Below, in pieces: positions 767 through 6,427 of a stretch of 6,883 nt of DNA. The translations under genes were made by a program, and so were the position numbers. Position 1 is the first letter of the stretch. Every line of letters starts with the position of its first letter. The notes under the pieces are model-generated. The model was not told where the DNA came from. It searched no databases and was given only the letters and a program-made list of their open reading frames with translations. The stretch spans positions 1-6,883 of the forward strand of contig JANXMO010000023.1 in assembly GCA_025354615.1 (NCBI GenBank). Reading direction: 5' to 3'. The stretch is from Burkholderiales bacterium. Its GTDB lineage: Bacteria; Pseudomonadota; Gammaproteobacteria; Burkholderiales; Burkholderiaceae_C.

Positions 767-791
767 TTCGCATTCCTGGACTTCCTTTCGC
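767..791 (+). promoter_or_regulatory. PIP/hrpII-box-like motif (TTCGC-N15-TTCGC)
   Basis: TTCGC at 767-771 and TTCGC at 787-791 are separated by exactly 15 nt. This matches the plant-inducible-promoter box TTCGB-N15-TTCGB recognised by the AraC-type activators HrpX (Xanthomonas, Acidovorax) and HrpB (Ralstonia). The family's -10 rule (YANNNT, 30-32 nt downstream) is met only in part: GAAACT at 823-828, 31 nt downstream, has the A and T but not the leading pyrimidine. Transcription starting near 835 would leave a leader of about 36 nt before the ATG at 871. Assuming equal base frequencies, such a box is expected by chance about 0.1 times in the whole window on both strands. Its position before an unknown gene and a HrpB1-like gene raises its credibility. 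Confidence 0.5.
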
Positions 792-870
792 TATTCAACT
801 GTTGTGCACCGTGGCTTGGATTGAAACTGCCCGTCAGGACAAGCGGTCACACAACGAATGGGAGCGTCAC

Positions 871-1455
871 ATGGGTGCCATCAGCAAAGTGTTCAAAAAC
901 ATCACGCACGCCGTTGACAGTGCGGCGCACAAACTCAAGCACGGGTTGTCTGAAATCGGCAAGGGCGTGGGAGACATGCTGGTCGGCGCCGTCACGCTGG
1001 ACTCGAAAAAATTCACGGCCGGTCTCAGCCGTGAGTTGAATGGCGTGGCGGAAGCCGGACGGGCGGTGGCATCGCTGCAGCCGCTGGAACTGATGGCCAC
1101 GGCCGTGTTGGGCGATGTGGTCACTCGGACGCTGGACAAGTTTTCGGCCAAAGTGATGGGCACGGTGACTGGCAGCATTGAAATGCTGGGGGAAGGCGCG
1201 GCGGAGTTTCGCCACGGCGTGATGCATGGCAATTTTCGCGAAGCGTTGGGCGGTTTGGTCAAGGAGGGCGCAGCTGCCGTGACGCTGGCTGAAACGCTGA
1301 CGCCAAAGGGCATGGCCACTTTGGCCGCAACCAGTGCGGTGAGCGTCGGCATGGAAGCCACCGGCCTTGACAAAAACCTTGAAAACGTGGTGGGTGAACG
1401 GGGCATGAAGGTGCTGGAGGTGGCCGCCAGCGCAACCTTGAGGACGGCTTTGTAA
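871..1455 (+). CDS. Hypothetical protein, Cys/Trp/Tyr-free, candidate type III secretion-associated protein
   Basis: I do not recognise a family for this 194-aa protein. I chose the ATG at 871 because GGGAG lies 6 nt upstream; the open frame reaches further back (TTG at 748), but that stretch covers the PIP-like box. The protein is rich in Ala, Gly, Val and Leu, contains no Cys, Trp or Tyr, and has only two Pro (71, 145). It reads as a chain of amphipathic or mildly hydrophobic helices: about 3-28, 56-69, 73-98, 122-141 and 147-162. The N-terminus is Ser/Lys/His-rich and lacks a Sec signal. Weakly hydrophobic segments (72-84, 147-160) might touch membranes but are not clear transmembrane helices. 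Such composition occurs in harpins, translocators and other type III substrates. This, the upstream box and the HrpB1-like gene 77 nt downstream suggest a type III link, but that is inference. A phasin-like or other helical soluble protein is an alternative. Confidence 0.8.
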   Translation: MGAISKVFKNITHAVDSAAHKLKHGLSEIGKGVGDMLVGAVTLDSKKFTAGLSRELNGVAEAGRAVASLQPLELMATAVLGDVVTRTLDKFSAKVMGTVTGSIEMLGEGAAEFRHGVMHGNFREALGGLVKEGAAAVTLAETLTPKGMATLAATSAVSVGMEATGLDKNLENVVGERGMKVLEVAASATLRTAL

Positions 1456-1504
1456 AGCCTGCCACTCCAACCTTTCACCAAACGCAGATCGATCAACGGA
1501 CGGA

Positions 1505-1519
1505 CGGGTCCAGGACCCG
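1505..1519. other. Perfect 7+1+7 palindrome next to the Shine-Dalgarno
   Basis: CGGGTCC, a central A and GGACCCG form a perfect inverted repeat. Its last base is the first base of the Shine-Dalgarno GGAAAGG (1519-1525) of the gene at 1533. As RNA it could fold only as a 5-bp stem with a 5-nt loop; as DNA it is an operator-like dyad. It is the only obvious structure in the 77-nt gap, so it may tune expression of the downstream gene. Confidence 0.4.
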
Positions 1520-1532
1520 GAAAGGGCACCTC

Positions 1533-1913
1533 ATGGAAACAGCCGAGTTGGAACACGTCGACCTGTCAAACGAGCCGATCGTGCAGAAAGCCCGCGCCAT
1601 GCGGCTGGCGCTGAACAACTGCGACGCCGATGCCGCGGAAATCACGCTGGCCGAGATGTGCGAAATCAACCCCGACCTGAAAGACGAGCTGCTTTTCCCG
1701 GTGATGATCTTCTTGTTCCGCGGCCAGGTGCGCGAAGCCCTGCAATTCATCAACTCTTTCCCTGATGACCGCTCGCCGGAGTTGAAAACGCTGTGCCTGT
1801 TTTTGCTGGGTGACCCGACATGGCAGGGCCTGGCGGAAGCGCAGGCGGCCAGCGGCAATCCGGCGATCAGTGCGTCGATGAAGCAGCTATTGGCAAACGC
1901 CGCGGTGGCGTAA
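1533..1913 (+). CDS. HrpB1/HrpK-like type III secretion protein (TPR-like)
   Basis: A 126-aa all-helical protein with a good Shine-Dalgarno (GGAAAGG, 7 nt before the ATG). The layout resembles the HrpB1/HrpK family: an acidic helical hairpin (about 15-46, ending EMCEINPDL), a second pair with LFRGQVREALQFI at 61-73, then LKTLCLFLLGDPTWQGLAEAQAASG at 84-108 in two helices, and a last helix, MKQLLANA. The gly-x-x-x-x-A-L turn and LGDPxW segment are the parts I rely on most. It is somewhat shorter than the usual 150 or so residues. In Xanthomonas, HrpB1 is needed for type III secretion and is reported to act in the periplasm, binding peptidoglycan; no classical signal peptide is visible here. 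A TPR-like secretion chaperone of the YscG/LcrH kind is the main alternative. It probably shares a transcript with the 194-aa gene upstream. No other secretion gene lies in the window. Confidence 0.6.
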   Translation: METAELEHVDLSNEPIVQKARAMRLALNNCDADAAEITLAEMCEINPDLKDELLFPVMIFLFRGQVREALQFINSFPDDRSPELKTLCLFLLGDPTWQGLAEAQAASGNPAISASMKQLLANAAVA

Positions 1914-2041: not shown

Positions 2042-2204
2042 AGTACGCCAACCCGGAGATTTCGAAACATGAACCCGCGTCTTCGCCCCGATGGCTGCGT
2101 TGCAAATCCTCGCGATACCTTCGGGTATCGCTGTGGTTTGCGCCTTGCCCTCGGGCCAAATCCATCGCGTTCATCTTGTTCCGAAATCTCCAGGTTGGCG
2201 TACT
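2042..2204. repeat. MITE-like palindromic element with 23-bp terminal inverted repeats
   Basis: Bases 2042-2064 are the reverse complement of 2182-2204 at 22 of 23 positions (ends AGTACGCCAACC and GGTTGGCGTACT). The centre is a perfect hairpin, GCGATACC-TTCG-GGTATCGC (2112-2131). The flanks between centre and ends also pair imperfectly: GCGTTGCAAATCC on the left faces GGTTTGCGCC on the right, and TGAAC and CGCG segments are mirrored. The whole element can therefore fold into one long cruciform. It encodes nothing plausible. No clear target-site duplication is visible (CCT on the left, GGA on the right). A non-autonomous transposon remnant or a dispersed REP/BIME-type repeat fits best. Confidence 0.75.
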
Positions 2205-5170: not shown

Positions 5171-5240
5171 CAAGCGCTGTGCTTTTTGACAAAGAGGCAA
5201 CTGCCGTCGCCGAGTTTTGCCCATTTTGCTTTTTACGGGC

Positions 5241-5268
5241 TTGCACGAGTTCATGCATCTTCTATATC
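5241..5268 (+). promoter_or_regulatory. Weak sigma-70-like promoter for the kinase-like gene
   Basis: TTGCAC (5241-5246) and TATATC (5263-5268) are separated by 16 nt. This gives fair matches to -35 and -10 and a leader of about 16 nt to the ATG at 5291. A better -35 (TTGACA at 5186) has no -10 at the right distance. The match is weak enough to be chance. Confidence 0.3.
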
Positions 5269-5290
5269 GCTCAATCCAAGTAACAAGCCC

Positions 5291-6427
5291 ATGGACATGT
5301 CAGATTCCCACGTAGGCCACCCCCCCCGTTCGGTATCCGACGATGAAACGCATCTTTCTTATTGGCGGCGCATGGTCAGTGATGCTGGGGCTGAAATCGC
5401 GGGGCCGTTGAGTGCCGCGCTCGAGCACATTCATGCGTTGACTACCACCGGTCACATTGACCGAGCAGCATTGCGCAATCTGCGTGACGAAGTGGAACAA
5501 GCCCGACAGGTTGGCATTGCAGCACAGCAACTGTCACGGTTCGCAGCCGGGCACATGCGGCAGTCCCATGAACGGCTGGCTTTGGCGGACACCGTGACAA
5601 CGGTGATGACGCACCGCGCGCGTGAAACACAAACACGAGGCATTCAACTCAAACTTCTTCTCAAGCCGGTGGATGTGGTGATTGACGCATCGCTGTTTTT
5701 CAGTTTGCTCAACACCATGGTCGACTGGGCTGTTGCCAATACGAGCGTGCAAATCGATTTTTCGATTGAAGTCAAAACCTGGCCCGCAATGGCCCGGTTG
5801 CTGTGCAGCTTCAACTTGTTGTCAAACGAGGCTTTGAATGGAAAGCCTCTCACTGTCAATACGACAAAACTGGATTCGATGGTTTGGCGACTTCTGGAGC
5901 AAACGGCACTGACGATGAACTTGCCTTTGACACGCAGCCTGCAAGGCCACCGGGTGGAACTCGCGCTGTCATTCCCCCGCACGGTCAATGATCAGATGCA
6001 AGGCGTCAGCATGCTGGAGCTCGACGAAGGCTTTGCGCCTTCGGGCAATTCAAAACCGCTGGCGGGCAGCCATGTACTGGTGATTGCGTCTCGTCGAGAC
6101 ATGCGGGTGCAGGTGCGCGACGCCACTCGTCACATGGGGTTGATTGTTGACATGGTGTCGTCGGTCAACGAAGCGCGTGATTTCTGCCGTGAGGGTTTGC
6201 CGCACGCCGTTATTTTCGAAAGTATTTTGAACGGCAGTGACTTGGCCGAACTGCGGGCGGAACTTCTGTTGGAAATCGCCGACTTTCCCTTTATCGAAAT
6301 CACCGAACACGGCAGCGATCACATGATGTCGGGGTTCGGCGGCGCCGAGCACGCCTTTGTCGGACGAGATGCCTTGCAAACAGCATTGCCCTCCGTGCTG
6401 ATGTATGAACTCTCGAAATCGCTGTGA
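5291..6427 (+). CDS. Degenerate histidine kinase-receiver fusion (pseudo-hybrid kinase)
   Basis: A 378-aa soluble protein, no signal peptide or membrane segment. Residues about 24-90 resemble a dimerisation/phosphoacceptor domain: GAEIAGPL (33-40) aligns with the canonical SHELRTPL but has Ala34 in place of the phospho-His. Residues about 95-230 resemble the ATPase domain: the X-region ERLALADTVTTVM, then LLNTMVDWAVANT (139-151) in place of the N-box, with Trp146 where the Mg-binding Asn should be. No DxGxG or GxGLGL box can be found; only the end, RVELALSFPR, is retained. Residues about 259-375 resemble a receiver: HVLVIASRRD lacks the acidic pair, AVIFES has Glu310 at the phospho-Asp position, Thr338 is kept, and Arg359 replaces Lys. 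It should thus neither bind ATP nor transfer phosphate. Start 5291 is chosen because it precedes the first plausible Met; 5297 is possible. Divergent from the PTS genes, so it may be an adaptor sensing them, but this is inference. Confidence 0.85.
   Translation: MDMSDSHVGHPPRSVSDDETHLSYWRRMVSDAGAEIAGPLSAALEHIHALTTTGHIDRAALRNLRDEVEQARQVGIAAQQLSRFAAGHMRQSHERLALADTVTTVMTHRARETQTRGIQLKLLLKPVDVVIDASLFFSLLNTMVDWAVANTSVQIDFSIEVKTWPAMARLLCSFNLLSNEALNGKPLTVNTTKLDSMVWRLLEQTALTMNLPLTRSLQGHRVELALSFPRTVNDQMQGVSMLELDEGFAPSGNSKPLAGSHVLVIASRRDMRVQVRDATRHMGLIVDMVSSVNEARDFCREGLPHAVIFESILNGSDLAELRAELLLEIADFPFIEITEHGSDHMMSGFGGAEHAFVGRDALQTALPSVLMYELSKSL
5320..5327 (+). repeat. C8 homopolymer in codons 10-12 of the kinase-like gene
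   Basis: Eight C residues run through the codons for His10-Pro11-Pro12-Arg13. Slippage by one base would frameshift the gene near its start and remove nearly all of the protein. At length 8 the tract is in the range where slippage is possible but not assured; chance in a GC-rich gene is also plausible. Confidence 0.5.

Follow-up and report, generated by a model that had tools for sequence, protein, structure and literature searches.

A putative HrpX-controlled orphan unit pairing a predicted tetratricopeptide repeat chaperone related to HrpB1 with a candidate type III-exported protein in a Burkholderiales genome

The stretch of DNA analysed here, referred to as the window, is an entire contig of 6883 bp (C673; JANXMO010000023.1) from a metagenome-assembled genome (MAG; G000, assembly GCA_025354615.1) of a Burkholderiales bacterium, which comprises 697 contigs and 2.80 Mb at a completeness of 80.85%. 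On its forward strand lies a perfect plant-inducible promoter (PIP) box followed by two short genes, termed A (871..1455, 194 aa) and B (1533..1913, 126 aa), separated by 77 nt. Judged from its sequence, this box-A-B arrangement is an orphan unit bearing the marks of a HrpX regulon, which is conserved and not a chance motif. The best explanation for the whole, to which we assign a probability of about 0.6, is a HrpX-controlled unit in which B acts as the predicted tetratricopeptide repeat (TPR) chaperone of a likely exported A. The parts of this explanation differ in strength: control of the unit by HrpX appears very probable, export of A by the Hrp type III machine is probable, and a chaperone function of B towards A, suggested by a structure model, is favoured with more reserve. 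In this mechanism HrpX/HrpB would bind the box and drive A and B, while B would hold A in the cytoplasm and thereby stop early assembly or sticking to membranes, after the manner of YscG/PscG and the needle subunits. Once exported, A would act outside the cell as needle, translocon or harpin-like accessory protein.

PIP-box regulons governed by HrpX/HrpB are described for Xanthomonas and Acidovorax citrulli (PMC6913199, PMC7831014, PMC3285194), and the published layout of the promoter reads TTCGB-N15-16-TTCGB-N30-32-YANNNT (PMC3285194). The window box, TTCGC-ATTCCTGGACTTCCT-TTCGC, is an exact match at 767..791 and ends 79 nt ahead of the ATG of A at 871, precisely as a preceding sequence-only reading of the window had claimed. 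The start of A is backed by a GGGAG motif at 860..864, the likely ribosome-binding site, and by A-family proteins, which align from M1. A longer open reading frame (ORF) beginning at TTG 748 was rejected, since this codon lies upstream of the box and the alignment of the A family begins at the ATG at 871.

Three observations weigh against the proposed explanation. The degenerate pattern TTCGB-N15-TTCGB occurs 77 times genome-wide as opposed to 84 times for the reversed control pattern, and as this count is no higher than that of the control, the degenerate motif taken alone is weak. Moreover, YANNNT is absent 30-32 nt past the window box, where GAAACT (823..828) is found at 31 nt instead, one letter off YANNNT and possibly a weak -10 element. 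Finally, HrpB1, to which B is related, is described as a predicted periplasmic inner-rod protein. Given the lack of enrichment of the degenerate form, the case for the box leans on the strict TTCGC pattern, together with the -10 element and the evidence of conservation. The strict pattern TTCGC-N15-TTCGC is enriched, with 34 occurrences versus 13 for its reversed control, so that the genome-wide scan speaks for the strict but not for the degenerate form. The chance expectation per window derived from these controls amounts to about 0.2 for TTCGB and about 0.03 for TTCGC; the estimate in the sequence-only reading was about 0.1. The attribution of the box to HrpX/HrpB made in the same reading agrees with its TTCGB-N15-TTCGB form but not with the lack of YANNNT, though genes devoid of this element have been described (PMC3285194).

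The -10 element delineates the regulon in the genome as a whole: YANNNT starts 30 or 31 nt past the box in 28 of the 77 TTCGB boxes, while every other offset between 0 and 51 accounts for at most 5. According to gene calls by a simple script, the boxes bearing this element make up 27 of the 54 boxes outside genes as opposed to 1 of the 23 inside. The 28 boxes thus point to a sizeable HrpX-type regulon that includes many unnamed genes. A matrix of the inner 15 nt was built from these 28 boxes, the window box being outside the training set, and with 9.65 bits the window box ranks third among the 77 genome boxes (p of about 2e-4 relative to random stretches). The regulon members of the MAG include a pair of similar proteins rich in Gly and Pro (L061, 226-1518; L064, 3151-3909).

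Both hrc genes and an AraC-type regulator of the HrpX/HrpB kind, by whose presence the sequence-only reading had proposed to judge its orphan-unit interpretation, were detected on other contigs of the MAG. On contig C386, genes for an OmpR-type (HrpG-like) protein and for an AraC-type protein with TPRs are accompanied by a PIP box, by sctU and by the initial part of hrcV, the remainder of which resides on C124. The two parts cover positions 3-369 and 368-677 of the hrcV model, and as each of them stops at a contig end, they probably represent one gene split by the assembly. The AraC-type protein of C386 is HrpX/HrpB-like on the strength of its HTH_18 domain, its TPRs and its position beside sctU and hrcV, an assignment for which no dedicated HrpX model exists. 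Canonical hrpB1 and hrpB2 are situated on C345, and sctT (hrcT) and sctN (hrcN) on C521. The HrpB1 protein of C345 passes the PF09613 cut-off (118.4 versus 29.3) and falls slightly below that of TIGR02561 (116.1 versus 123.85), and HrpB2 is matched with a score under its own cut-off (63.3 versus 93.3). Further genes on these contigs are presumably hrcJ, hrpB7, hrcQRS and hpaB, names which we adopt from the look of the sequence.

Gene B had been described in the sequence-only reading as HrpB1/HrpK-like, a view that did not hold for the single sequence, which remains under both curated cut-offs (PF09613, 14.3 versus 29.3; TIGR02561, 17.1 versus 123.85), but was borne out by its relatives. A second B-like copy resides on C521 beside hrcN, 145 nt past a box of its own. 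It is 48% identical to B (expectation value, E, 5e-27) and passes PF09613 with 40.7 bits, as does a relative from Aquabacterium terrae with 32.9; this family is matched in 48 of 399 genomes of the bacterial family, many of the matches being long TPR proteins. In a tree of 26 short HrpB1-like proteins, including the window protein and the other copies of the MAG, B belongs to a group of nine short proteins that form a clade of their own (support 0.997), separate from canonical HrpB1 and the C345 copy, the placement of B inside this clade being unresolved. On the other hand, profile comparison by hhalign aligns the B-type group with canonical HrpB1 at 98.7% probability over 117 columns, and a BLASTP pair (E 8e-6) also supports the homology. 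Because its clade stands apart from canonical HrpB1, the C345 copy included, and yet is homologous to it by profile, B is by its sequence relationships a HrpB1 paralogue rather than HrpB1 itself. The two groups share a homologous fold and sequence according to the profile comparison, and an Asp and a Trp around residues 94-97 are conserved in both. Compared with canonical HrpB1, B has fewer residues and no C-terminal extension, and its gene lies outside the hrpB operon, in which the place by hrpB2 and hrcJ is taken by the C345 copy. When the single sequence of B was searched against 5.8 billion proteins, only the protein of the window itself was returned, and none of 99 other relatives yielded B by such a search, whereas profiles reached further.

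The structure model of B displays a confident TPR fold (predicted local distance difference test, pLDDT, 88.0) with seven main helices and one short helix. Of all matches in the PDB, YscG and PscG, the class III chaperones of type III secretion systems, take the first and second place (2P58 and 2UWJ), with 110-111 residues superimposed at 2.8 A. The trait of three TPRs plus a capping helix, known from these chaperones, is also present in B, as far as a predicted model can tell. At the sequence level no such resemblance is apparent: none of the 12 matches to B in the PDB, counted up to E 1, is a chaperone, and the search with canonical HrpB1 gave no chaperone either. Apart from the fold, B resembles YscG/PscG in being small and in the adjacency of its gene to that of a small candidate substrate. 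Unlike these chaperones, it has a candidate client, A, that is not a known needle protein, and a YscE-like partner was not shown in the unit. Two genes of 87/88 aa, alike by eye, lie near hrcN (L046 on C521, 5474-5740; L051, 6807-7070), the latter preceding a short gene of 141 aa, and may encode YscE-like co-chaperones.

Gene A belongs to no Pfam family. A search of the same 5.8 billion proteins with the single sequence found only the protein of the window, and among 99 other relatives a single weak match emerged, in G066. The relationship of A to other proteins became apparent from the neighbourhood of B: the gene upstream of B in genome G266 matches A in a single-pair comparison (E 2e-10), and its counterpart in G310 matches that of G266 (E 3e-19). 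A profile of these three proteins, with scoring limited to 7998 candidates, gave at least eight matches, among them the protein of the window and proteins of the G266 and G310 kinds, and an A-family profile built without the window matches A at E 2e-18. With respect to the traits of harpins, which are rich in Gly, free of Cys and poor in aromatic residues, A contains no Cys, Trp or Tyr, and its Gly and Ala content amounts to only 27%. Its N-terminus is amphipathic. The structure model is helical, of low confidence (pLDDT 56.6), and was left out of the fold search. In Paracidovorax, Acidovorax and Rhizobacter Root1221 (L125-L131, L138, L132), A corresponds to the N-terminal part of proteins of 459-654 aa, and Pfam scans of three of these gave nothing convincing. 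G066, from another family of the order, encodes an A-like protein of 280 aa (L012, G066:C1, 1132-1986; E 3e-10). A perfect box precedes it at a distance of about 310 nt, but the genome lacks B; hence A may also exist without B.

The association of box, A and B recurs in other genera. A contig scan with relatives of B yielded 17 named loci, from Aquabacterium terrae, six Paracidovorax species, two Acidovorax, two Rhizobacter, Cupriavidus necator, Paraburkholderia solisilvae, three Burkholderia and a Herminiimonas MAG. In 15 of them an A-family gene stands directly upstream of B at a gap of 1-140 nt, the two Burkholderia matches to A being weak (E 1e-6 and 2e-5). Ten of these 15 relatives of A lie outside the profile, six of the ten being close kin of two inside it. 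In the two exceptions without A, Cupriavidus and Burkholderia WAC0059, B is still preceded by a perfect box. All 15 units with A have a TTCG-N16-TTCG box 66-140 nt ahead of this gene, which deviates in no more than one position and is perfect in 6, so that the box precedes the counterparts in relatives, as would be anticipated for an orphan unit of the regulon; YANNNT at 30-32 nt is present in 11 of the 15. For comparison, the box end was required to lie 60-145 nt upstream of a gene: boxes with at most one mismatch precede 15 of 15 A genes versus 9 of 114 other called genes, some of which are likewise hrp genes or were falsely called, and 4.9% of 20400 randomly chosen places, while perfect boxes precede 6 of 15, 6 of 114 and 0.9%, respectively. 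Together with the box, the regulators and the hrc genes, this conserved pairing supports the earlier interpretation of an orphan HrpX-regulon unit.

A similar picture is obtained from the 399 family genomes, a set that must not be added to the former, given that G266, G304, G310, G367 and G425 account for five of the 17 loci. All six strong A matches adjoin B, and three further A matches are weak (E 1.5e-4 to 6.5e-4). Clear B-type genes, defined by E below 1e-20, occur in nine genomes, six genomes with weaker matches remaining outside this count. HrcV exceeds its cut-off in seven of the nine, the other two being the MAG, in which hrcV is split, and G144, while a protein like HrpX is matched over most of its length in eight, again with the exception of G144. 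G158 (L198, G158:C48, 3565-4365) and G321 (L197, G321:C41, 4251-4574) each have a perfect box ahead of a Gly-rich gene of 70/71 aa, which in turn precedes a B-type gene. The products of these small genes are of needle size and may represent a second type of candidate substrate. A second locus of G321 has a Gly-rich gene of 125 aa ahead of B and no clear box, and G144 (L056, G144:C9, 5076-6446) presents a perfect box, a 124-aa gene, a B-type gene and a GNAT-like gene. None of the small genes ahead of B in G321, G158 and G144 matches the A profile.

This distribution bears on the alternative that survives best, namely that B is a second structural HrpB1, i.e. a part of the periplasmic inner rod, and A another gene under HrpX, linked to B by no more than a common promoter. 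The occurrence of B without A would fit this alternative, as would its homology to a protein with the inner-rod description mentioned above. However, most loci pair B with A or with another small gene, a canonical hrpB1 is already present in the hrpB operon of the MAG, and the best structural matches of the B model are cytoplasmic chaperones, all of which render a structural role unlikely.

A more doubtful alternative regards the unit as the decaying relic of a regulon unit, out of use in the MAG. It takes its cue from the missing YANNNT and from G144, where box and B are found without HrcV above the cut-off or a HrpX-like protein. The genome of G144 is 99% complete, its single HrcV match below the cut-off is taken for flagellar FlhA, and its unit would be either a relic or one serving another system. 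In the MAG, on the contrary, the reading frames of A and B are intact, the window box stands near the top of the genome-wide ranking, and hrc and hrpX-like genes are present; furthermore, YANNNT is also missing in 4 of the 15 related units. A decaying unit hence appears improbable. A chance box, with the pair being driven by something else, draws on the count of the degenerate motif and on the lack of a -10 element at the usual distance, but is very improbable in view of the third rank of the inner sequence, the box ahead of all 15 related A genes versus 9 of 114 others, with no sigma-70-like promoter being found within 480-2300.

The proposed HrpX-controlled unit with B as predicted chaperone of A resembles known regulons in that the box stands ahead of the first gene and the genome encodes an AraC-type regulator and hrc genes; regulons of this type commonly include orphan units located apart from the hrp cluster. 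It departs from them by the -10 element, and its assignment relies on sequence. A further counterpart is hpaT-hpaH of Xanthomonas translucens, a two-gene PIP-box operon whose first product evolves fast and is thought to aid translocation (PMC5483457). As hpaH is described there as a gene of the lytic transglycosylase type, whereas B is a predicted TPR gene, this is an analogous arrangement with a different partner, A and HpaT being likened by layout and description alone. For A. citrulli M6, 78 perfect boxes are reported, 41 of which are linked to HrpX-regulated genes (PMC6913199). The unit of the P. citrulli genome analysed here has a box with one mismatch and would therefore fall outside the perfect-box table of that source, and HrpX control of this unit may already be on record.

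As far as the open-access literature goes, the A-B pairing, the separate clade of HrpB1 paralogues and the predicted YscG-like fold are new, and HrpB1 is absent from the open-access literature found on the YscG/PscG chaperones. To our knowledge, no YscG-type chaperone of a needle or pilus has been established in plant systems of the Hrp2 type. A HrpX-box operon joining a HrpB1 paralogue with a small candidate substrate hence offers a simple two-protein test of this family as chaperones. Moreover, the signature of box, short gene and short HrpB1-like gene could flag unannotated type III substrates, also in bacteria that are not known as plant pathogens. A wider and decidedly tentative proposal would make the HrpB1 paralogues the fixed half of a movable PIP-box cassette, in which YscG-type TPR chaperones are combined with fast-changing, exchangeable small exported proteins (the A family, the 70-aa Gly-rich and the 124-aa types) across Burkholderiales with Hrp2-type secretion; HrpB1 itself would then likewise be a chaperone, perhaps of HrpB2, and not a periplasmic rod.

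The remainder of the window frames the unit. Its upstream neighbour is a DUF3597 gene at 70-486, which ends 280 nt short of the PIP box and was rejected as a member of the unit, there being no evidence for it. Ahead of the box lies a short repeat (504-540), pieces of which match 1 of 64 other stretches of the MAG that were compared. Directly 3' of B, an imperfect inverted repeat with arms of 31 nt (2042..2204), pieces of which match 5 of the 64, could by its sequence mark the end of the transcript or of an inserted segment. The unit may have been inserted between repeats. The genes downstream of B on the opposite strand are presumably ptsI and those for HPr and an EIIA component of the phosphotransferase system (PTS). 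No clean empty site beside ptsI was found in the 6 annotated of 30 ptsI loci (L168, L169, L171, L172, L173, L175), in which the neighbours vary and the genes listed include neither A/B nor DUF3597. An ORF at 5186-6427, flanked by the PTS genes and by a lipA-like gene, resembles a histidine kinase; it reaches the cut-off of no Pfam family and shows a weak NCBIfam match to QseC.
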